Positions 12,282-32,829 of a DNA stretch of 64,000 nt are shown here, one piece after another. A model generated the notes under the pieces. It made no database searches. It was not told where the DNA came from and saw only the letters and a program-made list of their open reading frames with translations. The translations under genes and the position numbers were made by a program. Position 1 is the stretch's first letter, and each line of letters opens with the position of its first letter. The stretch is from Alphaproteobacteria bacterium. Lineage in GTDB: Bacteria > Pseudomonadota > Alphaproteobacteria > Caulobacterales > Maricaulaceae. Location of the stretch: contig WGOD01000001.1 in NCBI GenBank assembly GCA_016124205.1, positions 310,001 through 374,000 on the forward strand, read 5' to 3'.

Positions 12282-12306
12282 GGAACCCCCCGGTAATGCA
12301 GACGTT
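12282..12306 (+). promoter_or_regulatory. Predicted EcfG promoter (GGAAC-N16-CGTT)
   Basis: GGAAC at 12282-12286 and CGTT at 12303-12306 with a 16-base spacer, an exact match to the alphaproteobacterial EcfG consensus. It lies about 45 bases upstream of the small membrane protein gene at 12352. Confidence 0.75.
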
Positions 12307-12351
12307 CACGCAGAGCGTCCGGATCGGGCGCCGCAGACAGGGATTCTTTCG

Positions 12352-12600
12352 ATGATCGATCTTCTCGGCTGGTTCGCCATGGCGTCCGGCATCATTGCCG
12401 CCGTCATGGTCTCGATCGATGCCGGGCGAAAGATTACCGGCTGGGGCTTCGTCGTCTTCACGGCTTCATCGCTGAGCTGGATCGCGGTCGGGATCGGTGA
12501 GGGCGAGCCGCCCCTGAGCCTGCAGAATGTGGTGCTGACCGTCATCAATATCGTTGGCATCTATCGCTGGCTGATCCGCAAGAAAAAGCCCGCCTCGTAA
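12352..12600 (+). CDS. Small integral membrane protein of unknown function
   Basis: An 82-aa protein with three hydrophobic stretches: about residues 3-22, 29-48 and 57-73, the last ending in NIVGIYRWL before a KKK tail. I know similar unnamed proteins in alphaproteobacteria but no function. It follows a predicted EcfG promoter, so it is probably a general-stress-response member. Its last codons form half of the terminator of the convergent gene. Confidence 0.75.
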   Translation: MIDLLGWFAMASGIIAAVMVSIDAGRKITGWGFVVFTASSLSWIAVGIGEGEPPLSLQNVVLTVINIVGIYRWLIRKKKPAS

Positions 12601-12607
12601 GGCGGGC
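12583..12607 (-). terminator. Terminator of the 12614-13222 gene, embedded in the convergent ORF end
   Basis: GCCCGCC and GGCGGGC arms flank TCGTAA, the plus-strand gene's stop region. On the minus strand the stem is followed by a run of five Ts. The 3' end of the small membrane protein gene therefore doubles as the terminator. Confidence 0.75.
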
Positions 12608-12613
12608 CTTGTC

Positions 12614-13222
12614 CTACCAACGCTGATTGAACACGAAGCCGACGAAGTGGTCCTGTTCGCGCCACTCCGTCATTCCGGAATTGAACGAGCGCTCCTGACG
12701 CACATAGCTGACAGAGACGAAACGATCCGGGGAGAGGCGCCACGCCACGCCGCCATATCCGTCGGCCACGTCCAGCGAGTCCGACATGTTGACGACCGGC
12801 TCGCGAAACCCGTTCAGACCGGGCGCCAGAAATACCGTACGGCGGTCCATGCCGGCCACGATCGCCATGGACGGGAACTGGACGTCCGCATTGTCGAACT
12901 GGATCGTCACGCCGAGCGAGCTGGACTGGCCGGTGCCGTCGTTTGGGCGGTCGAGCCGGGAGAAGGTCGCCAGACGCACCGGGGTGTCGAGCGAATCCGC
13001 GGCGAAGGCTTCGGGCTCGAAAATGTTGAACCGGGCTTCACAATTCCGGGCGTCGCCCAGCGACAGAGAAGGCGTGTAATCCTGGTCGTTCGCGAGCCCG
13101 GAGATTTCGGCGACCACACCGGTCAGACCGCCGGCCGAGGCTTGGCAATCGTCGGCCACTGCGAAGCCCGCAGGGGCAGAGGAAAGTTGGAGGGCAGCAG
13201 CGAGGAGGGTCAGCGCGCTCAT
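12614..13222 (-). CDS. Hypothetical secreted/outer-membrane protein
   Basis: A 202-aa protein starting with a short signal peptide (MSALTLLAAALQ...GFAVA). The rest alternates polar and hydrophobic residues and ends in FVGFVFNQRW. A C-terminal aromatic residue and amphipathic strands suggest a small outer-membrane beta-barrel, but no family is recognised. Two cysteines (DDCQAS and RNCEARF) could form a disulfide. A full EcfG promoter lies 67-92 bases upstream, so it is likely stress-induced. Confidence 0.7.
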   Translation of the reverse strand: MSALTLLAAALQLSSAPAGFAVADDCQASAGGLTGVVAEISGLANDQDYTPSLSLGDARNCEARFNIFEPEAFAADSLDTPVRLATFSRLDRPNDGTGQSSSLGVTIQFDNADVQFPSMAIVAGMDRRTVFLAPGLNGFREPVVNMSDSLDVADGYGGVAWRLSPDRFVSVSYVRQERSFNSGMTEWREQDHFVGFVFNQRW

Positions 13223-13288
13223 GTTTTGTCTCCAGCCTGTCGTTCAGTGCGCCTCGACAAAGTCGTGTTGCGCATCGTTGCTGGATCA

Positions 13289-13314
13289 ACGCCGGGACGG
13301 GGCGAGACGTTCCC
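13289..13314 (-). promoter_or_regulatory. Predicted EcfG promoter (GGAAC-N17-CGTT)
   Basis: On the minus strand GGAAC (13314-13310) and CGTT (13292-13289) are separated by 17 bases. It faces the secreted protein gene at 13222. Confidence 0.75.
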
Positions 13315-13342
13315 GGGAAAGCCGCGAAATAGCCGCAGAAAG

Positions 13343-13370
13343 CAAAACGGGCCGCGTTACCGCAGCCCGT
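13343..13370 (-). terminator. Terminator of phyR
   Basis: Minus-strand ACGGGCTGCG-GTAA-CGCGGCCCGT forms a 10-bp stem with one U-G pair and a GNRA loop, then TTTT. It lies 27 bases after the phyR stop. Confidence 0.82.
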
Positions 13371-13396
13371 TGCAACTTTGTCCTGCCGAGGCGGGA

Positions 13397-14170
13397 TCAG
13401 GCGAAGAAAAGCGCCTGACCGATCGCGGCCTTAACGGCATCCGGCAGGAAAGGCTTGGTGATCAGGTAGGTCGGCTCGGGCCGCTCGCCGGTCAGAAGCC
13501 GTTCCGGGAAGGCCGTGATGAAGATCACCGGGCAGGTGTGCGACTTCAGGATCTCGTGCACGGCATCAATGCCTGACGAATTGTCGGCGAGCTGAATGTC
13601 CGCCAGCACGAGGCCCGGCTTGGCAGGCACGGCGCGCTCCAGCGCTTCGGCCTTTGTGCGCGCCTGTCCGGCCACTTCGTGACCGAGGCTCTCGACGATG
13701 CGGCGGAGGTCGGCAGCGATAATCGGTTCGTCCTCGATGATGAAGACATTGGTCTTCAGTACCGCGTCGATTTCCTGCCGCGCCGTGTCGGTCAGCTGAT
13801 CCACCTCGTCGGTGGTGACGCCGAGAATCTGCGCGGCTTCCTTGCCGGAGAAATTCTCCATGGCGGTCAGCAGCAAGGCTTGACGGCTCACAGGCGGCAG
13901 GCGGCGCAGGCGATCTTCGGGACCGGAACCCGCTTCACCTTCATCGTTCGCTGCGTCCAACGTGGCGCCCGCGCTGTTCCAGACAGCGTGGAACAGACGG
14001 TAGAGGGCGACGCGCGCGGGCAGGGACGTGTCGAGCACGCTGCGGTCGGCGATCGCGGCTTCAAGTGCGGCACGGACATGGGCGTCGCCGCTGTTCTGCG
14101 ACCCGGTCAGTGCGCGGGCGTAGCGCCGCAGGAAAGGGAGGTGCGGCCCCAGCTCATTCACGAAACTCAT
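13397..14170 (-). CDS. phyR: General stress response anti-anti-sigma regulator PhyR
   Basis: Partner-switch regulator. When phosphorylated, its sigma-like domain binds NepR and frees EcfG. The start at 14170 (MSFVNELGPHLPFLRRYARAL) gives 257 aa, the usual size. Residues 1 to about 135 are the degenerate sigma2/sigma4 mimic (LPPVSRQALLLTAMENFSGKEAAQILG). Residues 140-257 are a receiver with acidic pair E146/D147, phospho-acceptor D191 (VLADIQLAD), T219 and K239. It is divergent from nepR-ecfG, the canonical arrangement. A near-consensus EcfG promoter precedes it, implying positive feedback. Confidence 0.96.
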   Translation of the reverse strand: MSFVNELGPHLPFLRRYARALTGSQNSGDAHVRAALEAAIADRSVLDTSLPARVALYRLFHAVWNSAGATLDAANDEGEAGSGPEDRLRRLPPVSRQALLLTAMENFSGKEAAQILGVTTDEVDQLTDTARQEIDAVLKTNVFIIEDEPIIAADLRRIVESLGHEVAGQARTKAEALERAVPAKPGLVLADIQLADNSSGIDAVHEILKSHTCPVIFITAFPERLLTGERPEPTYLITKPFLPDAVKAAIGQALFFA

Positions 14171-14214
14171 GCAGATAATTCCCCGTTTCGAAATCGGTCG
14201 TTTCAAGCGGTTTA

Positions 14215-14240
14215 AACCGTTCATTCGCGATTTGGTTCCC
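14215..14240 (-). promoter_or_regulatory. Predicted EcfG promoter of phyR (GGAAC-N16-CGGT)
   Basis: Minus strand GGAAC at 14240-14236, then 16 bases and CGGTT. There is one mismatch in the -10 element. Its position 45-70 bases before the phyR ATG fits autoregulation known for this system. Confidence 0.6.
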
Positions 14241-14268
14241 GCTGCTGAAAAAAAATTGCACCGGCATG

Positions 14269-14293
14269 GAACCCGACCGCTTTAGGCTTGTTA
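14269..14293 (+). promoter_or_regulatory. Predicted EcfG promoter of nepR-ecfG (GGAAC-N16-TGTT)
   Basis: GGAAC at 14269-14273 and TGTT at 14290-14293 with a 16-base spacer, one mismatch at the first -10 base. It lies 65 bases upstream of the nepR ATG and is back to back with the phyR promoter. Confidence 0.62.
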
Positions 14294-14357
14294 TATGCGC
14301 TGAAGCAAGCATTCGTGTGCTGGCAGACGGACCCGGCATGACAGCGTGGAAATTGGA

Positions 14358-14561
14358 ATGACCAAAAAAGCAGAAACTTCTCAGGCGCATCGCGACACCT
14401 CTCTGGGTGGAGCTGCCGGCCGGACCGCACAGGATGCGATCGGCCGCCGACTCCGTGAATTCTACGATGAGGTCGTGAACGAGCCGGTGCCGGACGATTT
14501 CATGGACCTTCTGTCCAAGCTGGATCGATCCGATGAGGAGAACGGTAATGACAGCCGCTAG
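14358..14561 (+). CDS. nepR: Anti-sigma factor NepR
   Basis: A 67-aa anti-sigma factor that holds EcfG inactive until phospho-PhyR titrates it. The start at ATG 14358 is preferred over the in-frame GTG at 14346. The conserved core IGRRLREFYDEVVNEPVPDDFMDLLSKL is the two-helix NepR domain (about residues 30-58). The gene end overlaps ecfG by 14 bases, so the two are coupled. It diverges from phyR. Confidence 0.94.
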   Translation: MTKKAETSQAHRDTSLGGAAGRTAQDAIGRRLREFYDEVVNEPVPDDFMDLLSKLDRSDEENGNDSR

Positions 14562-15147
14562 TTCGACTGCGGCGTCGGATGCGGCCGTTTTCCGTCAGGA
14601 CCTGGCGGCGCTGATCCCGCATCTGCGCGCCTTCGCGCGAAGCCTTTGCAACAATGCGAGCGAGGCGGACGATCTGGCGCAAGAGGCGCTGGTCAAAGCC
14701 TGGCAGGCGCGCGAACGCTTCGAGCCGGGCACCAATCTGAAAGCCTGGGTCTTCATGATCCTGCGAAACCATTTCTATTCCGAACGCCGCAAGGCCTGGC
14801 GGAAGAACGAGACCAGCGATGACGGCCTCGAAAGCATGGCAACGATGCCGGCCGGCCAGGATTCGATCATGGAGCTCGCGGATCTGAAGCATGCCATGTC
14901 GTCTCTTCCACCCGAGCAGCGCGAAGCGCTGATCCTCGTGGGGGCGGGTGGCTTTGCCTATGAGGAAGTCGCCGAGATCTGCGAATGCGCCGTCGGGACA
15001 ATCAAGAGCCGAGTGAACCGTGCGCGGGCGGCCCTTACGAAACTGCTGTCCGAGCGACCCGAGACAAAGGTCACCGGAACCGATGCCCTGAAGGCTGCCG
15101 AGGAGATTATCGCCGAGGCCCATGCGCTGGCGGGGGACCGTGGCTGA
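14548..15147 (+). CDS. ecfG: General stress response ECF sigma factor EcfG
   Basis: ECF sigma factor of the EcfG (ECF15) group, 199 aa from the ATG at 14548, which has a GAGGAG site 7 bases upstream. Region 2 (FRQDLAALIPHLRAFARSLCNNASEADDLAQEALVKAW) and region 4 (SLPPEQREALILVGAGGFAYEEVAEI and GTIKSRVNRAR) are intact. It recognises GGAAC-N16/17-CGTT promoters, of which about 15 are found nearby. It overlaps nepR upstream and the histidine kinase gene downstream by 26 bases. Confidence 0.95.
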   Translation: MTAASSTAASDAAVFRQDLAALIPHLRAFARSLCNNASEADDLAQEALVKAWQARERFEPGTNLKAWVFMILRNHFYSERRKAWRKNETSDDGLESMATMPAGQDSIMELADLKHAMSSLPPEQREALILVGAGGFAYEEVAEICECAVGTIKSRVNRARAALTKLLSERPETKVTGTDALKAAEEIIAEAHALAGDRG

Positions 15148-16885
15148 AACTGAAGCTTCGCGCTTTCAACCGGGGCTTCGCGCGCGACTTCTGGTCCTCG
15201 TCGCTCTCGCTCTTTCTCCGATCTTTGTGCTCGCCGCGATCCAGGCCTGGATCGACGGGCGTAACCAGCAGGACATTCTGGAGCGCGAACTGGCCGCGTC
15301 CGCGCGACTGCTTGCGCACGATCAGGAAATGCTGATCCGCGGAACCGAGGAGCTGATGATCACCATCTCCTCGATCCCCGAAGTCGCCAGTCTTGGTTCC
15401 GGCTGCAACAACGCAATGGCGCGCGTGACACAACGCAATCGTGCCTACACGAACTTTGCGATCTTCGACCTCGACGGAACGGTGCTGTGTTCGGCCGCAT
15501 CGACCGGAGCACAAACCAATTTCGCCGACGGAGACTGGTTTCAGGAAGCGCTCGAAGCGCAGGATTTCGTGATCGGCCGCTTCCGCATCGGCGCCACAAC
15601 GGGTGAGCCGGTGCTCGTGACCGCGTTGCCATTCTACCAGAATGGTGAGCTCGTCGGCGTCATGGCGACCGGAATCCGTGTCTCGGTGATCCAGCAACTC
15701 GGAATTCGCCGCGAGGACAATGAGCGGGGCCTGATCGCCGGTATCGTCGACCTCAGCGGTGCGGTGATCACCGAACGGACCCAGCTTCACGTCGACAGTA
15801 TCGATCCGTCACTTCTGGCGCGCGCCGATTCCGGTGAGATCGTGGTCTTTGAACGCGCGAATCCTGAATCTGGAATGAGAACACTCGCGGTGGCCTCCCT
15901 TATCGAAGGCGACGTCTACGTGCTTCTTTCGGCGCCGAAACCATCGCTCCTTTCCTGGGCACTGATCGACGTTTCGAGCACATTCGTCCTGCCGCTTCTG
16001 ATGTGGTCGCTCGCACTCGTCGCAATCTGGATTTCGACCGATCACCTGATCCTGCGCTGGCTGTCCTATCTGGGACGGATCGCGCGGCTTTACGGCCTCG
16101 GGCGGTACGAAATCGTTCCGGTCCGCGCCCAACGGGCCCCGCGGGAGATCCGGGAACTGGCTGACAGCTTCCAGTGGATGGCGACACGGATCGCCGAGCG
16201 CGATGAGGAGCTGAATGACGCCCTCGAATACAAGCAGACGCTGATCCGGGAAGTGCATCACAGGGTGAAGAACAATCTGCAGATCGTCACGAGCCTGCTC
16301 AATCTGCAACTCGGCAATGTCGCCGATCCGGAAGCGGTTTCTGCGCTTCGCGAAGCGCAAGCCCGGATCAACGCTCTCGCGATGGTTCACCGCAATCTCT
16401 ACGAGGCCGAAGATCTCCGCTTCATCCGGATTGAACCCTTCCTGTCGGAGCTGTGCCGACTCACGCATGAGGCGGGGCCGGGTCACAATGGATCCGTACG
16501 GCTGGATTTTGTCAGCACATTGAAGGACCGCGTGATCAGCACAGATGAAGCCGTGCCGCTCTCGATGTTCATCACCGAAGCCATGACGAACGCCTACAAG
16601 CACGCCTTCCCGGATCGCCATGCCGACAATGTCCTGACCGTGTCGCTCCGCGAATTCGACCGGGAGGGCGATGTCTGGATCGAGACCCTCGTCACGGACA
16701 ATGGTGTCGGCCTGTCCGAGGAAGAACGCCGGCAGGGGGTCGGGTCGTCCCTTTTCGAGGCGTTCGCGATCCAGCTCGAGGGCGAGTTCGAGATCGACGG
16801 AAAACCGAACGAGGGCGTTCGTATCGCCATTCGTTTCCCGCTCGAACATATCGATCCCGATGCTGAAGAATCTCCCGTTTCGTGA
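15122..16885 (+). CDS. Sensor histidine kinase, HisKA_2 type (PhyK-like)
   Basis: A 587-aa membrane kinase, probably a PhyR kinase. N-terminal TM helix at about 20-42, then a periplasmic sensor of about 230 residues resembling a Cache fold, a second TM (FVLPLLMWSLALVAIWI) and a HAMP-like linker. The HisKA_2 phospho-acceptor REVHHRVKNNLQIVTSLLNLQ follows, then a HATPase with EAMTNAYKHAF (N box) and VTDNGVGLSEEE (G1). HisKA_2 kinases linked to ecfG commonly phosphorylate PhyR. The start is either ATG 15122 inside ecfG or GTG 15140; I keep the first. Confidence 0.9.
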   Translation: MRWRGTVAETEASRFQPGLRARLLVLVALALSPIFVLAAIQAWIDGRNQQDILERELAASARLLAHDQEMLIRGTEELMITISSIPEVASLGSGCNNAMARVTQRNRAYTNFAIFDLDGTVLCSAASTGAQTNFADGDWFQEALEAQDFVIGRFRIGATTGEPVLVTALPFYQNGELVGVMATGIRVSVIQQLGIRREDNERGLIAGIVDLSGAVITERTQLHVDSIDPSLLARADSGEIVVFERANPESGMRTLAVASLIEGDVYVLLSAPKPSLLSWALIDVSSTFVLPLLMWSLALVAIWISTDHLILRWLSYLGRIARLYGLGRYEIVPVRAQRAPREIRELADSFQWMATRIAERDEELNDALEYKQTLIREVHHRVKNNLQIVTSLLNLQLGNVADPEAVSALREAQARINALAMVHRNLYEAEDLRFIRIEPFLSELCRLTHEAGPGHNGSVRLDFVSTLKDRVISTDEAVPLSMFITEAMTNAYKHAFPDRHADNVLTVSLREFDREGDVWIETLVTDNGVGLSEEERRQGVGSSLFEAFAIQLEGEFEIDGKPNEGVRIAIRFPLEHIDPDAEESPVS

Positions 16886-16909
16886 AACCCGATCGGGACG
16901 CCATGCGTT
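16884..16909 (+). promoter_or_regulatory. Possible EcfG promoter (GAAAC-N17-CGTT)
   Basis: GAAAC at 16884-16888 and CGTT at 16906-16909 with a 17-base spacer. There is one mismatch in the -35 element. It overlaps the kinase stop and lies 36 bases before the entericidin-like ATG. Confidence 0.5.
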
Positions 16910-16944
16910 TCCTGCCTGGTAGTTCAAACCGAAAGGCAAGACCC

Positions 16945-17073
16945 ATGAACAAGTTTCTCGCGCTTATCTTCCTGTCCCTGTTCGCCGTGACGGCGGCGGG
17001 TTGCAACACCGTCTATGGCGCCGGACAGGACGTCGAGGATGCCGGTGAGGCCGTGCAGGACGCAGCGGACTAG
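16945..17073 (+). CDS. Entericidin-like small lipoprotein
   Basis: A 42-aa lipoprotein starting at ATG 16945 (MNKFLALIFLSLFAV), with lipobox AAGC and a short charged tail of VEDAGEAVQDAAD repeats. Entericidin A/B family members are stress-induced envelope lipoproteins. It follows the phyR/ecfG locus, has a probable EcfG promoter and a strong terminator, and is the first of two such genes in the window. Confidence 0.85.
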   Translation: MNKFLALIFLSLFAVTAAGCNTVYGAGQDVEDAGEAVQDAAD

Positions 17074-17091
17074 ATCATCTGCCCATCCCAT

Positions 17092-17125
17092 GAAAAAGCC
17101 CCGCTCGATCGAGCGGGGCTTTTTT
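17092..17125. terminator. Bidirectional terminator
   Basis: GCCCCGCTCGA and its perfect complement TCGAGCGGGGC form an 11-bp stem with almost no loop. It is flanked by five As on the left and six Ts on the right, so it can stop both the entericidin gene and the convergent DUF1328 gene. Confidence 0.88.
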
Positions 17126-17146
17126 AATGGCCGCGTTGGAGCGGCA

Positions 17147-17323
17147 TCAGACCCTGGGCGAACCGCCTCGCACCAGGCGGACCACAAGAGCGATCACGAA
17201 GAGAATGAGGAACAGCACGAACAGGATCTGGGCGATGCTGGCGAATGCCGAAGCAATGCCGCCAAAGCCGAACACGGCTGCGATCAGTGCAAGGACGAAG
17301 AATAGAATGGCCCAACTCAACAT
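17147..17323 (-). CDS. DUF1328 family small membrane protein
   Basis: 58 aa, below the ORF-track cutoff. Read from ATG 17323 it gives [22 protein letters not shown]...GGSPRV, two TM helices with the FGFGGIAS turn typical of DUF1328 (YtjA). AAAGGAG lies 8 bases upstream. It follows the PRC-barrel gene by 74 bases on the same strand and may share its EcfG promoter. Function is unknown; the family is often stress-linked in alphaproteobacteria. Confidence 0.88.
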
Positions 17324-17397
17324 GGGGATCTCCTTTTCGGGTCTGGGACGGGATGTTGTGATTGACGGGGAGGGTTTAGGGGCGAGGGATCAGACGG

Positions 17398-18027
17398 TCA
17401 GATGCCGGCCGTCAGCCGGATGACACGTTCGGACGCGTCCCAGCGGGCGTTCTCGGCCGGCCAGGTCTGTCGTTCGGCACGCGAACGGAACCAGTTTCCG
17501 GTTTGCTGGACGGTCACGAGGGCCTGGATGGCGCCATCCGAACCGGTCTCCACATTGACCAAGCGGCCAAGCGGCGTGCCGTCGGCGGCCACCAGCTCTG
17601 CCCCTGCCAGCACGCCTTCGCCGACGCGATTGACGGGCAACCCGCCGCTCCGCGCAACGATACGCGCGTCTTCCTCCGCCCATGACCGCATGATGTCGGC
17701 CCGGGCGTCGGAAATCAGCGTGTTGGCCGAACGGTCATAGGAGAAGCGGTCGACCGACTGGGTCAGGGTGAAAGGGTCTGCGGTCCAGCCGGCGCGCCAG
17801 CGAATGTCGAGCGCTTCGACCTGACCTTCCTGGTTCAGGTGAACCCGTTCGACCGTACCGACAGCGCGGCCGTCGACCTCGGTGATGCGGGCTTCGAAAT
17901 AGGTGTTTCCGTCCAGCCCGCGCGCGGCTTCGAGGGCCGCTTCATCATGGGGAAGAATGGACGGCGCATAGGCGCCGAACAGCGTCGCGGCGGCGATGGC
18001 GGTTCCCGCTTGCCAGATGCGTTTCAT
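17398..18027 (-). CDS. PRC-barrel-like envelope protein
   Basis: A 209-aa protein starting at ATG 18027 (MKRIWQAGTAIAAATLFGAYA), with a signal peptide or anchor. Two repeated units, ITEVDGRAVGTVERVHLNQEGQVEALDIRW and GVLAGAELVAADGTPLGRLVNVETGSDG, look like PRC-barrel strands. The ORF track starts it wrongly at 18444. An exact EcfG promoter lies 32-56 bases upstream. It is related in style to the PRC-like gene at 21777. Function unknown; a surface or ion-binding role is possible. Confidence 0.78.
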   Translation of the reverse strand: MKRIWQAGTAIAAATLFGAYAPSILPHDEAALEAARGLDGNTYFEARITEVDGRAVGTVERVHLNQEGQVEALDIRWRAGWTADPFTLTQSVDRFSYDRSANTLISDARADIMRSWAEEDARIVARSGGLPVNRVGEGVLAGAELVAADGTPLGRLVNVETGSDGAIQALVTVQQTGNWFRSRAERQTWPAENARWDASERVIRLTAGI

Positions 18028-18058
18028 GCTCACGACTCCTTTTTGAGTTCGTGATCGA

Positions 18059-18083
18059 AACGTTCCGGACACGGTCAGGTTCC
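18059..18083 (-). promoter_or_regulatory. Predicted EcfG promoter (GGAAC-N16-CGTT)
   Basis: Minus strand GGAAC (18083-18079), 16 bases, CGTT (18062-18059), an exact consensus. It drives the PRC-barrel-like gene at 18027. Confidence 0.8.
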
Positions 18084-18131
18084 AAGGATTGTGTCGTCCA
18101 GGAGGCGAAGGGGCGGCAATCAATTGCCTGT

Positions 18132-18157
18132 GGAACCCGGGACCCTGCCGCGGGGTT
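18132..18157 (+). promoter_or_regulatory. Possible EcfG promoter (GGAAC-N17-GGTT)
   Basis: GGAAC at 18132-18136 and GGTT at 18154-18157, spacer 17, one -10 mismatch. It lies 45 bases before the small membrane gene at 18202. Confidence 0.55.
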
Positions 18158-18201
18158 GAGCCCATGAAGGTTACGGACCTGGATCCCTGATGGAGACTGA
18201 C

Positions 18202-18375
18202 ATGCTGGAACTGATGCTTCTGTTCATCATCATCGCGCTGATCGCCGGATATTTCGGGTTCTTCGCCCTGTCCGGCACGGCGGCGATGGTCGCTCAAATC
18301 CTGTTTTTCGTCGCGATCGCGCTGATCATCCTGCGCGGTGTCGGCGATGCCATTCGCGGCCGGCCTCCGGTCTAG
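18202..18375 (+). CDS. DUF1328-like small membrane protein
   Basis: 57 aa from ATG 18202, with GGAG 6 bases upstream. The track's ATG at 18190 has no ribosome site. MLELMLLFIIIALIAGYFGFFALSG and VAQILFFVAIALIIL are two TM helices in DUF1328 order, but the usual FGFGGIA turn is altered to FGFFALSG. It is a divergent paralogue of the genes at 17147 and 27618. Confidence 0.75.
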   Translation: MLELMLLFIIIALIAGYFGFFALSGTAAMVAQILFFVAIALIILRGVGDAIRGRPPV

Positions 18376-18401
18376 GCACCGGGGCACATCTTTTCGATGG
18401 G

Positions 18402-18433
18402 AAATGCGCATCCGGTATCGGGTGCGCATTTTC
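18402..18433 (+). terminator. Terminator of the DUF1328-like gene
   Basis: ATGCGCATCC and GGTGCGCAT form a stem with one bulged base, followed by TTTTCC. It sits 27 bases after the stop. Confidence 0.7.
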
Positions 18434-18495
18434 CATGCCGCCAAGCCTTTGTAATTGTGTTGAAAACTCTATCTGAAATTTTTCTGCAGCGGACC

Positions 18496-18521
18496 GGAAC
18501 CAATTTTCCGCATCAGACGTT
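18496..18521 (+). promoter_or_regulatory. Predicted EcfG promoter (GGAAC-N17-CGTT) with no downstream protein gene
   Basis: GGAAC at 18496-18500 and CGTT at 18518-18521, spacer 17, an exact consensus on the plus strand. The next plus-strand protein gene is more than 1.6 kb away, so the product is probably an untranslated RNA. Confidence 0.75.
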
Positions 18522-18526
18522 TTCCA

Positions 18527-18600
18527 ATTGTCCGGCTGGTAGAGCGCCTGTCCCCCCCGTTGGATCCCTCCGTCCTCGCTCTACCGGCCGGACACTTGAT
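18527..18600 (+). ncRNA. Candidate EcfG-dependent small RNA with a C-rich loop
   Basis: Starting about 6 bases after the promoter, TGTCCGGCTGGTAGAGCG (18529-18546) pairs with CGCTCTACCGGCCGGACA (18577-18594), 18 bp with a single U-G pair. The 30-base loop contains a run of seven Cs and CCCTCC, complementary to Shine-Dalgarno sequences. An sT/EcfG-dependent sRNA with C-rich loops, GsrN, is known in Caulobacter. Whether this is its counterpart is inference. The 3' end is uncertain, since only a weak CCGG hairpin before TTCCTTTT is seen. Confidence 0.5.
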
Positions 18601-18605
18601 TCCGG

Positions 18606-18767
18606 TCAGTCCGGTTCCTTTTCCCCGACATAGTTTTCCGAGAGTTTCTGGCTCAGCCGATCATCCGGCTCGAGCTGGTTGAGGATGTCGTCTCCGAGGC
18701 GGCGCATCGCCTCACGGATCGCCGCGTCCTTCTTGCTCGTGGCGTCGTCCTTGCGCGTGTCGCTCAT
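18606..18767 (-). CDS. Divergent NepR-like small protein
   Basis: 53 aa, not in the ORF track. Read from ATG 18767, the core AAIREAMRRLGDDILNQLEPDDRLSQKL aligns position by position with the NepR core of this genome (DAIGRRLREFYDEVVNEPVPDDFMDLL), keeping the ILNQ/VVNE and PDD positions. It has a charged N-terminus (SDTRKDDATSKKD). It lies 20 bases after a sigma-like gene on the same strand. I infer a paralogous anti-sigma-type partner; the match is short and needs profile testing. Confidence 0.55.
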   Translation of the reverse strand: MSDTRKDDATSKKDAAIREAMRRLGDDILNQLEPDDRLSQKLSENYVGEKEPD

Positions 18768-18787
18768 CGTTGCATTCAACCTCTTTT

Positions 18788-19249
18788 CTATCGCGGCTCG
18801 GATCGGGTGCGGTGGGGCAGGGCTCCGCTCAGCCGTGCCATGGCCCGGTCGGCCCGGGCCGCCAGCATGTCGGCCGGCACGTTCGACGTTGCGCTGGCCA
18901 GGGCCGGGTCGAATTCCTCGACCACGATAAGACAGGCGGCAAGCCGCTCGTCATAGGGGAGGGACCAGAAGGCAGGGAGAAGCTGCGGATCGTTGATTCC
19001 GGTGCTCCGGAACAGTGGAATGACGTTCACCGCTCTTGCGTCCTGTTCGAGGCTCGCTGCGGCAGCGGAGAAGAGCACCCGAACCACGCCCGGATAATCC
19101 CGCGCTTCGCGCAGGGCGATGTGGCACCCTTCAACGGCTGAGAGCAGCGCCGCGTCCGCCCGGGCGGCGTCGGCGATCATGAGCCGTGCAAACCGCCGCA
19201 GGCGGGGAACAAGGCAGAGTGCGAAATCGAGAATGACAATCTCCCGCAA
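18788..19249 (-). CDS. Degenerate sigma-factor-like protein (EcfG/PhyR sigma-domain paralogue)
   Basis: A protein of about 153 aa. The N-terminus ILDFALCLVPRLRRFARLMIADAARADAAL resembles EcfG region 2 here (DLAALIPHLRAFARSLCNNASEADDL). The C-terminal SLPYDERLAACLIVVEEFDPALASATSNV follows the region 4 pattern (LPPEQREALILV...), but the DNA-recognition helix is poorly kept. It could be a second sigma factor or a PhyR-like decoy. The track start is TTG 19249 inside a hairpin that also holds the GCGGGAG ribosome site, so the true start is unsure. The NepR-like gene follows it. Confidence 0.6.
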   Translation of the reverse strand: MREIVILDFALCLVPRLRRFARLMIADAARADAALLSAVEGCHIALREARDYPGVVRVLFSAAAASLEQDARAVNVIPLFRSTGINDPQLLPAFWSLPYDERLAACLIVVEEFDPALASATSNVPADMLAARADRAMARLSGALPHRTRSEPR

Positions 19250-19265
19250 GAGGGTTTTGCGGGAG
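19241..19265 (-). promoter_or_regulatory. Hairpin masking the ribosome site of the sigma-like gene
   Basis: CTCCCGCAA and TTGCGGGAG form a perfect 9-bp stem with a 7-base loop. In the minus-strand RNA the 3' arm contains GCGGGAG, the only good ribosome site for the sigma-like gene. A second perfect 8-bp hairpin (19270-19290) lies directly before it. Translational control or attenuation is possible. Confidence 0.5.
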
Positions 19266-19310
19266 AGTGGCGCGCAAGTTTTTTGCGCGCGCTAACCTAT
19301 GATACGGGAT

Positions 19311-20066
19311 TCATGCCATTGATCCGCGGCCGTCGCTGAACTGAAGGTTCCGTAGCGGCCGGGCATCGAGATGAAGGTAATGGCTGTCGAACCCGGCAAT
19401 CGACGCGAGCGATTCCGGGTCGAGGATGCGCAGATGCGCGTTCGTCGACACCAGACCCATGCGGCGCATCGTCGAAACCGTTCGAGATACGTGAACCGAT
19501 GAGAGGCCGACGGCATCGGCAATCAGCTGACGGCTGAGCGGCAGAGCCACGGGCTCGTCGGGATCCGCGTTGCCAGTCAGGATGAGTCGGCGGCGGAGTT
19601 CGAAGAGCAGATGCGAGATCCGCTCGATGGCGTTCCGGCGCCCCACGCGCACGATGTGTTCGCGCAAAATGCCCTCTTCCTGGACGGCCGACCACCACAG
19701 GGCCGAGCTGAGGGCAGGGTGGGCCGAAACGACGCTGAGAAACTCCGGTGTCGGAATGGAGCGGACTTCGCTGAGCGTGATTGTCTCGATTCCGTGGTCG
19801 GACTTCGAGTCGATCATCGCCTGCAGGTCGAAGATGTCGCCTGGCAAAAGGAAGTTGATGATCTGGCGGCGTCCGTCTTCCAGTATCCGCTTCCGGATGG
19901 CCCAGCCTTTCTGGATCACATGGATACGGCGGATCACTTCGCCCTCGCTGATTATGGTCTTGCCGCGCGGCATCTGTTTCAGAACGTGCGACATGCCGGT
20001 CAGCGCCGCCTCGGACGGGCGGGGCAGTTCCGCATACTTCTTCAGACGGGCAAGCAGGGCATCCAT
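19311..20066 (-). CDS. Crp/Fnr family transcriptional regulator
   Basis: A 251-aa regulator. The N-terminal cyclic-nucleotide-type beta-barrel includes KTIISEGEVIRRIHVIQKGWAIRKR and GDIFDLQAMID. The dimer helix is followed by a winged HTH with LPLSRQLIADAVGLSSVHVSRTVSTMRRMGLV. No FNR-type cysteine cluster is visible. An exact EcfG promoter lies 31-55 bases upstream, so it is probably a second-tier stress regulator. The sigma-like and NepR-like genes follow it on the same strand after two hairpins. Confidence 0.9.
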   Translation of the reverse strand: MDALLARLKKYAELPRPSEAALTGMSHVLKQMPRGKTIISEGEVIRRIHVIQKGWAIRKRILEDGRRQIINFLLPGDIFDLQAMIDSKSDHGIETITLSEVRSIPTPEFLSVVSAHPALSSALWWSAVQEEGILREHIVRVGRRNAIERISHLLFELRRRLILTGNADPDEPVALPLSRQLIADAVGLSSVHVSRTVSTMRRMGLVSTNAHLRILDPESLASIAGFDSHYLHLDARPLRNLQFSDGRGSMA

Positions 20067-20096
20067 CGGTCCAACTCCTCAATCTGTTGAGGGAGT

Positions 20097-20121
20097 AACG
20101 TCGTGCCAAAGACCCGGTTCC
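20097..20121 (-). promoter_or_regulatory. Predicted EcfG promoter (GGAAC-N16-CGTT) of the Crp/Fnr gene
   Basis: Minus strand GGAAC (20121-20117), 16 bases, CGTT (20100-20097). It is an exact consensus, divergent from the promoter at 20144. Confidence 0.8.
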
Positions 20122-20143
20122 CGCGATTCGGATATTCTCCCGC

Positions 20144-20168
20144 GGAACGAATTCACCGAGACAGCGTT
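20144..20168 (+). promoter_or_regulatory. Predicted EcfG promoter (GGAAC-N16-CGTT)
   Basis: GGAAC at 20144-20148 and CGTT at 20165-20168, spacer 16. It lies 25 bases before the small protein gene at 20193, whose ribosome site would sit just after the transcription start. Confidence 0.8.
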
Positions 20169-20192
20169 TTGATGGCCAACAAGGAGGCTGTC

Positions 20193-20354
20193 ATGAACGC
20201 TCGCAAGTCGAATATCCGCCCGGTTCACCTGGCTGTCGCCGGTCTGGCGATCGCCGTCGTCGTCTTGGCCGGCCTCCTCTGGCACGAGAGCCGGACCGAG
20301 CGCGTCGAATTTTCGTTCGGCGGCCAGTCATTCGAGGTTGAAGCCGAGGGCTAG
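20193..20354 (+). CDS. Small single-pass membrane protein
   Basis: 53 aa from ATG 20193, with AAGGAGG 5 bases upstream. The track start at 20103 would run through the promoter. A basic N-terminus (MNARKSNIRPVH) precedes one TM helix (LAVAGLAIAVVVLAGLLW), then a short polar tail VEFSFGGQSFEVEAEG predicted to be periplasmic. No family is recognised. The exact EcfG promoter in front marks it as stress-induced. Confidence 0.75.
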   Translation: MNARKSNIRPVHLAVAGLAIAVVVLAGLLWHESRTERVEFSFGGQSFEVEAEG

Positions 20355-20394
20355 GCGCCACGCCGGCGCAACGGCCCGCCAGGGAGACTGACCC

Positions 20395-21582
20395 ATGCGG
20401 CACTATCGTCTCATCACATCACCGGAATCGATCGCGAGCCTGAAGATCAGGATGTACCTGCAATGGCGCAATGTCGCCTTCCGGGAAACATCGGCATCGC
20501 GCCTCACCCTCAAGAGCGAGATCCTGCCACGGTTGAAGCGTATCGATATCCCGGTTCTGATCACGCCCTCCAACGAGACTGTGCAGGACACGCGATCGAT
20601 GATCGATCACATCGAGGCGCGGGAGCCGGGGGAGGGCCTGATCCCTGATGACAAAGCGGGCCGATTTGCGAGCCGGCTGATCGAGATGTTCGCGGATGAC
20701 TGGCTCGCGCCGACCGCATCATTTGCCGTCTGGTCGAGCGAAGCGCCGCCAGCTGCCAGAAATCTGGCCGCGACGCTTTATCCGGAGCATGACGATGCGA
20801 TGCTGGACCGCGCCGCGAAACGACTGCATGCCCAGGTTCGCGCTCGGCTCGGTCGCCAGGGTCTGATCGATAAGACTTGGCCGTCCCGAGCGGCCCGGGT
20901 CAGTGAACTGGCCGAGTTGCTCGAAACGCGACTGGAATCGTCCCGTTTTCTCTTGGGGAGTCAGCCGAGCGTTGCGGATTGCGCGCTCGCGGCGCCCTTC
21001 CTCTTCCTGTGGACCGAGACCCCCTTCGGCGCCGAATTGCTTTCGCGCCTGCCGAACCTGACGCGTTGGATGCACGTCATGTCGGGCAGCGGCTTGCGCC
21101 CGTCGGCGGCACCGGCCGATGAAACGGACAATTCCACATTGATACCCGTGCTGCGGTTCGCGGCGGAACAATCCCTGCCGCATGCGCTCGGTGCCGCCGA
21201 AGCGGTCGCCGACTGGGCGGCATCGCATCCGGGAATCATCAATCTGCCGCGGTCGGTCGGGAACTCCGCCCCGAAGCAGGATCCGGAAAACGTGTCGCGC
21301 GAATATGCCCCCACCACGGCGTGGATGCTTCAGCGGCTCCTCGACCTCCTCGATGAGGCGGACGACGACACGCTTGAAATCCGGGACGCCAGCGGGTGCG
21401 CCATGCTCGAAAAATATCGACCGCGCCGGACTTTGCGGCACGAGCACCACCGCTTCCGGCTCAATATCGATGCGGACCCGGATGACGAGCCCATCGATAT
21501 CCACACACTCGCCGAACCCCTGCTGAAAGCGCGCAAGCGTGCGGTCGAAACGCGGGACCTCGAGCGACTGGTGCTCGGCTGA
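20395..21582 (+). CDS. Glutathione S-transferase-like protein with C-terminal extension
   Basis: 395 aa. Residues 1 to about 75 fit a GST N-terminal thioredoxin fold (YRLITSPESIASLKIRMYLQW and RIDIPVLITPSNETVQDTRSMIDHIE). Residues of about 90-230 fit the all-helical GST C-domain (FLLGSQPSVADCALAAPFLFLW). The last 150 residues are an extension of unknown fold. The family conjugates or reduces with glutathione, or has non-catalytic roles. A ribosome site GGGAG precedes the ATG. It lies 40 bases after the small membrane gene and may share the EcfG promoter. Confidence 0.8.
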   Translation: MRHYRLITSPESIASLKIRMYLQWRNVAFRETSASRLTLKSEILPRLKRIDIPVLITPSNETVQDTRSMIDHIEAREPGEGLIPDDKAGRFASRLIEMFADDWLAPTASFAVWSSEAPPAARNLAATLYPEHDDAMLDRAAKRLHAQVRARLGRQGLIDKTWPSRAARVSELAELLETRLESSRFLLGSQPSVADCALAAPFLFLWTETPFGAELLSRLPNLTRWMHVMSGSGLRPSAAPADETDNSTLIPVLRFAAEQSLPHALGAAEAVADWAASHPGIINLPRSVGNSAPKQDPENVSREYAPTTAWMLQRLLDLLDEADDDTLEIRDASGCAMLEKYRPRRTLRHEHHRFRLNIDADPDDEPIDIHTLAEPLLKARKRAVETRDLERLVLG

Positions 21583-21608
21583 CCACCGCGGAATTTGACG
21601 AGTTCGAG

Positions 21609-21637
21609 ATGGCGGCGCCCAATTGCCGCCATTTTCT
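21609..21637 (+). terminator. Terminator of the GST-like gene
   Basis: ATGGCGGC and GCCGCCAT form an 8-bp stem with an 8-base loop, followed by TTTTCTTT, 27 bases after the stop. Confidence 0.8.
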
Positions 21638-21690
21638 TTATTGTGTTGTTTTAACTACGTAATTCGTTCTGAAGACGACTGCAATCTGGT

Positions 21691-21715
21691 GGAACGACTG
21701 TCGGCCTGCTGCGTT
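21691..21715 (+). promoter_or_regulatory. Predicted EcfG promoter (GGAAC-N16-CGTT)
   Basis: GGAAC at 21691-21695 and CGTT at 21712-21715, spacer 16, an exact consensus, 62 bases before the PRC-barrel gene at 21777. Confidence 0.8.
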
Positions 21716-21776
21716 CATTTCCCGAATGCGGATTGCATTCCGGATGGAGATCCCGAACGCAGATGGAGACACTGCC

Positions 21777-22385
21777 ATGAAACGTTTTCTGATTGCCACC
21801 TCGATGCTGGCCCTCACGACGGCTCCGGCCTTTGCCGACGACCCGCAGACGACGCCGGAAGAAAATCAGACCCCGCCGGTGACGAGCGAGATGCCGCAGA
21901 CCACCGATCCGATCCTCGACGAACCGATGATCGATGACGAGGACGCGGCGTATGACGAACTCGACACCGACGAATCCTGGGACGAGGCCGAACTTCAGAA
22001 CGGTTTCACCGACGACCATGACTGGATCGACACCGACGTGTTCGGTTCGGGCGGTACGGAACTGGGCACGGTTGAACGTGTCCGCCTGTCCGATACCGGT
22101 GACGTCGATGCGATCGTCATCGAAACGGGTGGGATCGCCGAAGTCGGCGGCCGTGAGGTCCTGATCGAGAACGGCGAATTCGAGCTCGTGTCCGACCTTG
22201 AAGGTGACAACACGATCAACCTGATGGTCGACGCGGAAGGCTTCGCGGCGCTTCCGGACTTCGATGAAGACCTCGCGTCCGATTATCCGCTGAGCGACGA
22301 CGATGCGTTCGACGGCATGGATGACGACAACGCCGACGACGTCGACACCCTCGAAGACGACGAAATCGCGGATCCGTCGCGCTAA
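21777..22385 (+). CDS. Secreted acidic PRC-barrel domain protein
   Basis: 202 aa from ATG 21777. The signal peptide MKRFLIATSMLALTTAPAFA is followed by an acidic, proline- and threonine-rich stretch, a PRC-barrel-like core (GTELGTVERVRLSDTGDVDAIVIETGG and GGREVLIENGEFELV), and a very acidic C-terminal tail (DDDNADDVDTLEDDE). It is probably periplasmic, and the acidic tails may bind cations. It has an exact EcfG promoter. Compare the PRC-like gene at 17398. Confidence 0.82.
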   Translation: MKRFLIATSMLALTTAPAFADDPQTTPEENQTPPVTSEMPQTTDPILDEPMIDDEDAAYDELDTDESWDEAELQNGFTDDHDWIDTDVFGSGGTELGTVERVRLSDTGDVDAIVIETGGIAEVGGREVLIENGEFELVSDLEGDNTINLMVDAEGFAALPDFDEDLASDYPLSDDDAFDGMDDDNADDVDTLEDDEIADPSR

Positions 22386-22407
22386 TCGGCGCTGATCCGA
22401 ATGCTCT

Positions 22408-22436
22408 GGAAGCGGTGCGGTTTTCGCGCCGCTTCC
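22408..22436. terminator. Hairpin after the PRC-barrel gene, probable terminator
   Basis: GGAAGCGGTGCG and CGCGCCGCTTCC form a 12-bp stem with one U-G pair and a GTTTT loop, 22 bases after the stop. No T-run follows, so termination is inferred. Confidence 0.5.
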
Positions 22437-22489
22437 TCACTTCCCGTCTCGATCAACTGCTTTTCGACGAATTGCTCCGTCCCCGCCAG

Positions 22490-22514
22490 GGAACACTCAG
22501 GGTCGGCATGCGTT
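22490..22514 (+). promoter_or_regulatory. Predicted EcfG promoter (GGAAC-N16-CGTT)
   Basis: GGAAC at 22490-22494 and CGTT at 22511-22514, spacer 16, an exact consensus, 33 bases before the glycine-zipper gene. Confidence 0.8.
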
Positions 22515-22546
22515 TGATCGGTACGACTACCCAGAAGGAGTAACCC

Positions 22547-22906
22547 ATGCGACGCTTCCTGCTTATCGCGAGCCTGGCCCCGGCAATGGCCCTGACCGCC
22601 TGTGCCGGCTACGAGAACACCACGCGTGACGCCGCCATCGGTGGCGCGCTTGGTGCAGCCGCTGGCGCAGCCATCGGCAACAATACCGGTTCCGGCGATG
22701 CGGCGACCGGCGCAGCCATCGGTGCCGCTGTCGGCGCAGCCGGCGGCGCGGCAGTCGGCTGTCAGCGCGACGGCGTTTGCCCGTGGAGCCAGAACAACAA
22801 CCGTCATTCCGAGCTGTACTACGACAGCCGGGCCAATCGCTATTACTACGTGAATAACGGTGATGGTTGCACCTACTGGCGCAACGGCGAATTCCGCGGC
22901 TGCTAA
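22547..22906 (+). CDS. Glycine-zipper lipoprotein
   Basis: A 119-aa protein. The signal peptide ends in a lipobox (ALTACAGY). Residues of about 28-70 are two glycine-zipper hairpins (AAIGGALGAAAGAAIGNNTG and AIGAAVGAAGGAAVG) as in the 17 kDa/Rickettsia-antigen and SlyB-like families. The C-terminal domain is tyrosine-rich (NRYYYVNNGDGCTYW) with cysteines. It is probably an outer-membrane lipoprotein. An exact EcfG promoter precedes it. Confidence 0.85.
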   Translation: MRRFLLIASLAPAMALTACAGYENTTRDAAIGGALGAAAGAAIGNNTGSGDAATGAAIGAAVGAAGGAAVGCQRDGVCPWSQNNNRHSELYYDSRANRYYYVNNGDGCTYWRNGEFRGC

Positions 22907-22941
22907 GTCCGGTTTTCCGCACAAACAATCAATCACGATAC

Positions 22942-22969
22942 GCGTCCTGCCGGGTTCCCGGCGGGACGC
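22942..22969 (+). promoter_or_regulatory. Strong leader hairpin before the OmpA-like gene
   Basis: GCGTCCTGCCGGG and CCCGGCGGGACGC form a 13-bp stem with one U-G pair and a two-base loop. It ends 4 bases before the TTGGAGG ribosome site of the OmpA gene. No T-run follows, so it may stabilise or control the ompA-like leader rather than terminate. Confidence 0.5.
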
Positions 22970-22986
22970 ACCCTTGGAGGGGATCA

Positions 22987-24090
22987 ATGAAAAAGAACCT
23001 GATGACAGCCGCCGCGATCGGCCTGGCTCTGTCCATCCCGGCCTTCTCGACGGCTCACGCCGACGAGGGCTGGTATGGCAGCCTGTCGGTTGGCTATGGC
23101 GGCCCGAGCGATGCCGACGTCAATCTCGCCGGCACACCGGATCGAGAAATCCAGGGCGAGTCCAACTGGCGCGAGGCGCTGGCCTTCGGCTATGCCTATG
23201 ACAGTGGTTGGCGTTGGGAAGTCGAAGGCTCCCACCGCTACAATGAAACCGGCGCGATCGGTGCCTATGAGGACTCGGCCAGCGACTTCCATATCTGGTC
23301 GGCCATGTTCAACGCCTATTACGACTTCAACCGCGATGGCTGGATCCAACCCTATCTCGGTGCGGGTGCCGGTTACGGCCAGGTCAGCGGTTCGCTGGCG
23401 GGTTGGTCCACCGGGTCTCGACCGGTTCCCAATGCCGGACCGGCCGACACGCGCTATGTCGTGGCGCGCGATGATGATGGCACCTTCGTCTGGAACCTCA
23501 TTGCCGGCGTCGGCTGGGCGATGGGTGACAACTGGTATCTCGACACCCAGTACCGCTATTTCGCGACGGGCGAGACCCAGTTCCAGAACACCGATGTCAG
23601 CTCGCTGAGCGGTCACGAAGTCTGGCTCGGCCTGCGGTATGTGTTCGCGGCTCCGCCGCCCCCGCCGCCGCCTCCGCCTCCTCCGCCGCCGCCCCCTCCG
23701 CCGCCTCCGCCGCCACCCCCTCCGCCTCCGCCGCCCCCGGCGCCGGACTGCGATGATGTCGGCTTCGTCGTCTACTTCGAGTGGGATCGCTCGAACCTGA
23801 CCGATCAGGCGCGTACGGTGATCAACCAGGCGATCGAGCAGGCGCGAACCTGTGGCGTCGCCAGCGTCCAGATCGACGGTCACGCCGACCGTTCGGGTGC
23901 TGCGTCCTACAATGTCGGCCTTTCCGAACGCCGCGCCCGCGCGGTTCGCGACGAGATGGTGCGCCTTGGTGTGCCGGCCGGCGGCATCTCGCTGCAGGCC
24001 TTCGGGGAAACCCGTCCTGCCGTCGAGACGCCGGATGGCGTACGTGAGCCGCTCAACCGCCGCGCAGAGGTCCTTGTCGACCTGCGCTAG
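22987..24090 (+). CDS. OmpA family outer-membrane protein with poly-proline linker
   Basis: 367 aa from ATG 22987; the track start at 22867 lies in the previous gene. Signal peptide (AFSTAHA), then a beta-barrel of about 200 residues (GWYGSLSVGYGG to VWLGLRYVF), an uninterrupted run of about 29 prolines, and an OmpA/peptidoglycan-binding domain (VVYFEWDRSNLT, IDGHADRSG, NVGLSERRARAVRDEM, FGETRP, LNRRAEV). It anchors the outer membrane to the wall. The polyproline tract should need EF-P during translation. Confidence 0.92.
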   Translation: MKKNLMTAAAIGLALSIPAFSTAHADEGWYGSLSVGYGGPSDADVNLAGTPDREIQGESNWREALAFGYAYDSGWRWEVEGSHRYNETGAIGAYEDSASDFHIWSAMFNAYYDFNRDGWIQPYLGAGAGYGQVSGSLAGWSTGSRPVPNAGPADTRYVVARDDDGTFVWNLIAGVGWAMGDNWYLDTQYRYFATGETQFQNTDVSSLSGHEVWLGLRYVFAAPPPPPPPPPPPPPPPPPPPPPPPPPPPPPAPDCDDVGFVVYFEWDRSNLTDQARTVINQAIEQARTCGVASVQIDGHADRSGAASYNVGLSERRARAVRDEMVRLGVPAGGISLQAFGETRPAVETPDGVREPLNRRAEVLVDLR

Positions 24091-24119
24091 GCGATTGATC
24101 GCTCATGCGACGAAATGGA

Positions 24120-24150
24120 ACGGCCCGGGGTTCGCCCCGGGCCGTTTTCT
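24120..24150 (+). terminator. Terminator of the OmpA-like gene
   Basis: ACGGCCCGGGG-TTCG-CCCCGGGCCGT is an 11-bp stem with a UUCG tetraloop followed by TTTTCTTT. Confidence 0.9.
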
Positions 24151-24170
24151 TTGTGTCTGCAATAATCCCG

Positions 24171-24857
24171 TCAGCGGCAAGCCGACACGAAAGCCCTGAA
24201 CAGGGCGCGCATATCTGCCCGGTAGATCATCAGCTCTGGGTGGAACTGGACGCCCATGACGAAGTGGTCGCCATCGGCCTCGATCGCCTGGATGCCACCG
24301 TGGGACTCCCGCGCCGTGACATGCAGCGCGTCTCCTGGCTCGCGGACGGCGCGGCGATGCAGGGAATTGACCTTCAGCCGTGTCTCTCCGGTGATCGCGG
24401 CGAGGCGCGAGTCCGGCTCGAGGTCGATCGGTTTGCGAAAGAAGGTGTAGCCGATCGGTCCTGAGGGATAGGTCTTCAGAACGTCGGGATCGATCGATTG
24501 GACGAGATCGCCGCCGCGCGAAACATTCAGCAGCTGGCATCCACGGCAGATCGCCAGGATCGGCATCTCCGTCTCCCAGGCCTGACGGGCCCAGGCCATT
24601 TCGAGCGCGTCGCGCGCATCGTCATAGCGGCTCGCCGGATCGATCCGGCCTTCGTAGAGGTGCGGATTGAGGTCGAGACCGCCGCTGAGCAGCAGTCCGT
24701 TGAAATCGCCGGGCGCACGGGGCAGGGCGGGCGTGACCTTCACAGGGACGCCGCCGGCCAGGCGCACGGAAAGCGCAAGGGACAGGAAGACGAGCCAGTC
24801 CTGGCCGTCGGGCTTGGTGATCCCAATCCGGGGGTTTTGCCGTTTCCGGCCTGCCAA
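24171..24857 (-). CDS. Class I glutamine amidotransferase-like hydrolase, peptidase C26 family
   Basis: 228 aa, similar to gamma-glutamyl-gamma-aminobutyrate hydrolases (PuuD type). The nucleophile cysteine is in LAICRGCQLLNVSRGG, and the His-Glu pair is in GVQFHPELM. GLLLSGGLDLNP and the EMAWARQAWE helix match the family. C26 enzymes hydrolyse gamma-glutamyl amides. It follows an ATP-grasp gene by 16 bases on the same strand, so the two may act on one metabolite. Confidence 0.85.
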   Translation of the reverse strand: MAGRKRQNPRIGITKPDGQDWLVFLSLALSVRLAGGVPVKVTPALPRAPGDFNGLLLSGGLDLNPHLYEGRIDPASRYDDARDALEMAWARQAWETEMPILAICRGCQLLNVSRGGDLVQSIDPDVLKTYPSGPIGYTFFRKPIDLEPDSRLAAITGETRLKVNSLHRRAVREPGDALHVTARESHGGIQAIEADGDHFVMGVQFHPELMIYRADMRALFRAFVSACR

Positions 24858-24873
24858 AGCCTAAAGTCCTCGA

Positions 24874-26205: not shown

Positions 26206-26221
26206 TTGGTTCAATCCGGAA

Positions 26222-26566: not shown

Positions 26567-26574
26567 GGCAGATC

Positions 26575-26600
26575 AACGTTCAGCCGGAACGGCAAGTTCC
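26575..26600 (-). promoter_or_regulatory. Predicted EcfG promoter (GGAAC-N17-CGTT)
   Basis: Minus strand GGAAC (26600-26596), 17 bases, CGTT (26578-26575), an exact consensus. It heads the membrane protein/ATP-grasp/C26 operon. Confidence 0.75.
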
Positions 26601-26631
26601 CGATTCGAAGCGCGATTTCCGGCTCTGTGGC

Positions 26632-26660
26632 AAAAAAACACCCCGCCGAAATGGCGGGGT
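26632..26660 (-). terminator. Terminator of the 26690-27794 stress operon
   Basis: On the minus strand ACACCCCGCC and GGCGGGGTGT form a 10-bp stem with a 5-base loop followed by seven Ts. Confidence 0.88.
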
Positions 26661-26689
26661 GTTCTCAAGCAGTACAGGTGTCGAGCCGG

Positions 26690-27052: not shown

Positions 27053-27058
27053 GTCGCC

Positions 27059-27310: not shown

Positions 27311-27375
27311 TTCGGGCTCCTCTGATTTTCTGTTGGCAGCGGGTTGGCGCGCCATCTTCTCTCTCCATTCACGGC

Positions 27376-32741: not shown

Positions 32742-32829
<88 letters not shown>

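Follow-up and report, generated by a model that had tools for sequence, protein, structure and literature searches.

A candidate small RNA of the general stress response, with an EcfG-type promoter and a C-rich loop, in a PhyR-NepR-EcfG-kinase locus

The window, by which we mean the whole 64-kb stretch of DNA that was analyzed (genome G000, a 2.2-Mb assembly that is 70% complete), carries a general stress response (GSR) locus. A reading frame on the minus strand (13397–14170) corresponds to phyR, and on the plus strand lie nepR (14352–14561, a reading frame with the NepR-like motif REFYDEVVNEPVPDDFMDLL), ecfG (14542–15147, with Pfam domains Sigma70_r2, r4_2, and PhyR_sigma2), which encodes the ECF sigma factor that presumably transcribes the candidate RNA described here, and a gene for a dCache-HisKA_2 sensor kinase (15122–16885, assigned by Pfam) in a PhyK-like position. 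Further along the plus strand, a gene for a small DUF1328 membrane protein (18202–18375; Pfam PF07043 and tblastn) is followed by a terminator-like hairpin (18397–18436, plus strand), which separates it from the RNA gene. The RNA gene lies within the PhyR-NepR-EcfG-kinase locus, 3.3 kb past the end of ecfG. Strict EcfG promoters occur 12 times in the window, compared with once in a reversed-sequence control, and cluster at 12.2–27.9 kb. The region from 12282 to 27889 is a dense EcfG regulon hub, with promoters just 5' of several reading frames, including those for a Crp/Fnr regulator and for PRC-barrel-type and small envelope proteins. A 53-aa ORF on the minus strand (18606–18768) had no Pfam match.

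The first-pass annotation of this DNA had proposed an exact EcfG promoter with a spacer of 17, and this was borne out base for base at 18496–18521 on the plus strand, where the -35 element GGAAC(C) (18496–18501) is separated from the -10 element CGTT (18518–18521) by 17 nucleotides, counted from GGAAC. Judging from the distance to the -10 element, transcription is predicted to start at 18527–18530, such that the 5' end of the RNA would coincide with the foot of a long stem. This stem had been described as an inverted repeat of 18 bp with one U-G pair, located 6–8 bases past the promoter; we found the same 18 bp and single U-G pair 7 nt from CGTT. Its arms, supported by the sequence, the predicted fold, and an alignment of three genomes, are at 18529–18546 (5' arm, plus strand) and 18577–18594 (3' arm, plus strand), and they enclose a 30-nt loop (18547–18576, plus strand) that reads CCUGUCCCCCCCGUUGGAUCCCUCCGUCCU. 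Both of the loop features noted previously are present: a run of seven Cs at 18552–18558 and CCCTCC (CCCUCC in the RNA) at 18566–18571. The C7 tract is followed by GUU and then by a possible 4-bp inner hairpin (GGAU at 18562–18565 with GUCC at 18572–18575, plus strand), which would expose CCCUCC.

The segment from 18524 to 18640 has a predicted folding energy of -45.8 kcal/mol compared with -28.4 ± 3.2 kcal/mol for shuffled sequences (z = -5.4). Ungapped stems of at least 16 bp (loop of at most 60) occur three times in the 64-kb window, one of them being the candidate RNA; the other two, with loops of 4 nt, resemble ordinary terminators. The candidate RNA is present as one copy in its own genome. 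At the gathering threshold of Rfam release 15 it was unmatched, the sole match in the window being a tRNA-Ser at 32745–32829, and at a relaxed threshold just miRNA-precursor models were returned, all far under their cut-offs. No tRNA was called within the candidate by ARAGORN. Downstream of the stem, the sequence CCGG-ucagu-CCGG followed by UUCCUUUUCC (18602–18624, plus strand) forms a weak terminator-like element. A convincing terminator was not found in the window copy, as the 18602–18624 element fails a terminator scan.

The order of DUF1328 and then the RNA is kept in G000, G002, G006, G010, and G011. In G002, which belongs to the same genus, a syntenic copy is 90% identical from the -10 box through the hairpin; the flanking genes are 74–79% identical, and the remaining intergenic DNA does not align. 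Compared with G000, the G002 loop has one C fewer (C6 versus C7) and is otherwise identical, and the stem contains two G-C to A-U exchanges and one U-G to U-A exchange, with two further changes at the stem foot, of which U-A to U-C disrupts pairing. Some 30 nt past the stem, G002 has a strong terminator, a hairpin that runs into a T-rich tail. In G006, also of this genus, a promoter and a long hairpin directly follow DUF1328, and a covariance model built from two sequences, those of G000 and G002 alone (R1), matched this copy at a score of 31.9 bits, with E 1.1e-6 for the 93 kb searched; here, CCCUCCCC takes the place of the C7 of G000 and the C6 of G002. The promoter in G002 and G006 is GGAACC-N15-CGTT (N16 from GGAAC), and all three copies therefore fall within the GsrN-type GSR promoter pattern (GGAAC, spacer 15–17, CGTT). 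Across the G000, G002, and G006 stems, 98.1% of cells are paired and six pairs have changed on both sides, whereas in a control with the partner slid by 1–3 columns 25–44% of cells were paired, with 0–2 two-sided changes. RNAalifold recovered 18 pairs of the stem unaided from the three genomes, and conservation of the loop equals that of the stem. Judged by these sequences, we regard the G002 and G006 copies as certain homologues. A copy in G080, a member of another genus, was matched by the same model with 20.1 bits (E 0.0027) just 3' of the kinase gene and is, on sequence, a likely homologue. Blastn and R1 searches over 137 genomes of the family reached significance in G000 and G002 only, and the remaining weak matches fell in coding-like sequence. 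Likewise, no such hairpin was found behind the EcfG promoters listed for Henriciella and Hyphomonas loci, which had been retrieved on the basis of Crp/Fnr. One Hyphomonas locus (L031) shares its promoter sequence with a genome assigned to family f2 of the order, and the family of the window (f1) is therefore probably a third one within Caulobacterales, by elimination perhaps Maricaulaceae. Conservation in relatives had been put forward as the check on the repeat, and it came out in favor of the proposal: the promoter and stem-loop are syntenic at the GSR locus of two congeners, with pair-preserving changes.

We compared the occurrence of the RNA with that of PhyR. Of the 137 genomes of the family, 53 gave a PhyR match (E ≤ 1e-30), and so did four of the genus's eight members (G000, G002, G003, and G006). 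Three of these four (G000, G002, and G006) have the RNA; the G003 contig is 7 kb long and stops just after the kinase gene, short of the place of the RNA. Neither blastn nor R1 detected a copy in G001, G004, G005, or G007, the genus members without a PhyR match. The absence of a PhyR match (E 1e-30) from this half of the genus, g1, suggests that the general stress response is lost or patchy within it.

A scan of 41 GSR neighborhoods, with criteria set after the first matches were known, yielded 10 loci at which a hairpin that exposes a C-rich loop lies behind a strict EcfG promoter, distributed over the genera g1 (three), g4 (two), g13 (one), g15 (three), and g19 (one). Whole-locus shuffles gave 0.28 loci on average compared with the 10 observed; this control is too lenient because shuffling destroys the promoters as well. 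When promoters were retained, the 10 observed loci compared with 4.8 when the DNA behind them was shuffled and with 2.8 when positions were drawn at random, and with at least 18 enclosing pairs the corresponding numbers were 6 observed, 1.1, and 0.8. Given the promoters, the excess of C-rich hairpins over chance is moderate, and the case therefore rests on synteny, covariance-model matches, and paired changes. The g4 pair are plausible homologues, with similar loops (GUCGUCCCUCCCCC) and with terminators in both genomes; the g15 and g19 loci are, by their sequences, leads. Weaker look-alikes occur at GSR loci of three genera beyond that of G080.

Further C-rich elements behind EcfG promoters were seen in other families. 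At loci L160–L171 (family f4, genus g31, ∼10 genomes), an EcfG-promoter RNA recurs in which the outer stem is CCCCGC/GCGGGG, an inner hairpin displays ACCCUCCCCCC, and a second hairpin is rich in C and G; for family f4, this is likely the C-rich RNA of the GSR. In genus g28 of family f3 (G170, G278, G353, G390, G400, and others), a pattern search of the order revealed GUCCGCCCCUCUACGCCCCCCCGA, a second C-rich element behind an EcfG promoter, in addition to the GsrN-like RNA of the family. In G421, G433, and G437 (family f2, genus g38), an EcfG promoter is followed by GUCACGGCCGG...UUAUCCGCCCCCCCGA, possibly a further C-rich GSR RNA.

In our judgment, the window probably encodes a small regulatory RNA, about 70–100 nt long, that belongs to the general stress response, is made under EcfG control, and does GsrN-like work through pairing of its C-rich loop with G-rich mRNAs; from the sequence, a base-pairing RNA under EcfG control would be the most economical reading. 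The first-pass annotation had likewise envisaged an EcfG-driven stress sRNA of GsrN layout, and the conserved promoter and stem-loop and the position in the GSR locus support it, the likeness being one of architecture. Under stress, EcfG would be freed from NepR through PhyR and would transcribe the RNA from the 18496–18521 promoter. A start at the stem foot would clamp the 5' end in a helix, and we propose that the RNA is therefore stable. The stem would display the loop with C7 and CCCUCC for base pairing with G-rich mRNA stretches, which would lie mostly in leaders and Shine-Dalgarno regions, and pairing would presumably alter translation or stability. It may involve Shine-Dalgarno sites, through CCCUCC, or G tracts, through C7.

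Other explanations of the hairpin have to be weighed against a small regulatory RNA. The inverted repeat sits between convergent genes, and it might thus be a terminator or other DNA or RNA punctuation between DUF1328 and the minus-strand genes; however, the loop is 30 nt long, a U tract is absent on both strands, DUF1328 has a terminator hairpin of its own, and a conserved promoter faces a hairpin whose loop is conserved like its stem, all of which makes punctuation improbable. Even less credence is due to a cis-antisense RNA to the 53-aa ORF or a leader of a plus-strand small protein. The RNA could reach the 3' end of that ORF, given a window copy without a clear terminator, but no recognizable copy of the ORF is found at the corresponding place in G002 and G006, where the RNA persists, a conserved plus-strand reading frame is absent, and in G002 the terminator ends the RNA first. 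A tRNA-derived element or mobile palindromic repeat was brought up by the likeness of GGCTGGTAGAGCGCCTG to a D-arm, which had been taken as a possible hint of origin. This segment is altered in the relatives (GGCTGATAGAGCACCTG in G002 and GGTCGCTGGGG in G006), where it changes together with its pairing partner, and the likeness is best read as chance because the segment differs in both. With ARAGORN and Rfam negative and the segment not kept, a tRNA origin is ruled out, as is a repeat element by the single copy in the genome.

A different role for the loop is that of an anti-Shine-Dalgarno silencer, in which CCCUCC would mimic the 16S anti-Shine-Dalgarno and obstruct many ribosome sites when the cell is stressed. 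The loop stretch at 18559–18571, GUUGGAUC-CCUCC, resembles what we take to be the 3' tail of 16S rRNA minus one A, and G002 retains it whereas G006 does not. Patterns for this tail matched nothing in these genomes apart from the RNA, perhaps because they lack rRNA sequences. Most candidates across genera have CCCUCC or CCCUCCCC as the common part of the loop, and the SisA-D RNAs of Caulobacter (aR8 family) use an anti-Shine-Dalgarno 10-mer (PMC12559287). Against this, CCUCC is missing from GsrN-type RNAs and from the G136 candidate, and the real loops paired no better with gene starts than did scrambled loops of equal composition. Similarly, pairing of the loop with the katG leader of G002 ranked in the best 7–8% of 591 leaders, and scrambled loops paired equally well; in this comparison, katG pairing was not above chance. 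No PF00141 match for katG was found in the 70%-complete G000 genome. We hold a silencer of this kind to be possible but doubtful, and a small regulatory RNA with GsrN-like work remains our preferred reading.

GsrN (CCNA_R0081) of Caulobacter crescentus is a ∼100-nt general-stress sRNA with a sigT promoter, and its gene usually lies beside sigT-phyR (PMC5869019). Its C-rich 5' loop, with six tandem C, pairs with G-rich targets, including the katG leader; a stable 5' isoform arises by processing, Hfq stabilizes the full-length RNA, and relatives were found by BLASTn in Caulobacteraceae only (PMC5869019). Our pattern search of the order revealed a well-conserved RNA in family f3 (GCGGAGGCGGCGACGCCCCCCCGACUU...) whose gene was close to phyR, ∼0.1–1.3 kb downstream, at 28 of the 30 loci retrieved; from its position and loop, rather than from a reference sequence, we infer that this RNA is GsrN and that family f3 is Caulobacteraceae. 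These GsrN-type RNAs and the window RNA have in common the promoter, the 7-nt lead (alignment A3), a stem that begins at the RNA 5' end, a C6–7 tract in the 5' part of the loop, an inner hairpin, and a gene near phyR. In contrast, the stem sequence of the window RNA is unlike that of GsrN, its inner hairpin has 4 bp rather than ∼8, its loop also contains CCCUCC, which is absent from the GsrN-type RNAs. As regards termination, the intrinsic terminator of GsrN has a strong counterpart in the G002 copy and, in the window copy, the weak element.

Could the window RNA then be a true orthologue, a gene common with the GsrN of Caulobacteraceae whose stem and loop have diverged? The promoter, 7-nt lead, outer stem, inner hairpin, and GSR-locus site are alike, in both RNAs G(A)CUU or GUU comes directly behind the C6–7 tract, and the G006 loop CCCUCCCCACUUG resembles CCCCCCCGACUUG of GsrN. 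However, a covariance model of 27 GsrN-type RNAs (R2), which had themselves been taken for GsrN on the strength of position and loop, gave no match to the window RNA at E ≤ 10 in 809 kb and none in its own genome; in the local 1 kb, its best match was the window hairpin in exact register, at no more than 13.1 bits. In addition, GsrN adjoins phyR, whereas the window RNA lies beyond the kinase gene, on the other side, and short C-rich loops may have originated repeatedly. Orthology is thus a serious possibility, although we lean slightly against it. Of the GsrN layout claimed at the outset, the common architecture stands, but the GsrN model misses the RNA at genome scale; the RNA is therefore built like GsrN and may or may not share its descent.

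Among other known RNAs, the aR8 RNAs SisA-D and the window RNA both have an anti-Shine-Dalgarno-like C-rich pairing element, but the aR8 core 5'-UUUCCUCCCU-3' is single-stranded, lies 3' of a weak hairpin, and is expressed from unrelated promoters (PMC12559287). This core is absent from the window RNA, whose loop reads GUUGGAUCCCUCCGUCC. The putative GsrN-like RNAs of Rhizobiaceae likewise have, by description, an EcfG promoter, GSR proximity, and an exposed C-rich loop (PMC5869019, Figure 9). Perhaps nearly every Caulobacterales family has its own fast-evolving EcfG-driven hairpin RNA of which only the architecture is kept (a lead of 7 nt, a 5' end clamped in the stem, a loop that exposes C/CCCUCC, and a terminator), coupling the stress sigma factor to broad anti-Shine-Dalgarno or G-tract pairing and not to fixed targets, but we consider this speculative. 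If transcribed, the window RNA would provide a post-transcriptional arm for the GSR of a family outside Caulobacteraceae. Alike architecture with unlike sequences would allow common ancestry to be tested against repeated origin of GsrN-type RNAs, and such a set of RNAs would also allow testing of which loop features set targets. Overall, GsrN-type RNAs are themselves already known, and the window RNA is a lineage-specific, previously unannotated candidate that matches Caulobacter GsrN in anatomy and, by this analogy, most likely in the kind of work it does.
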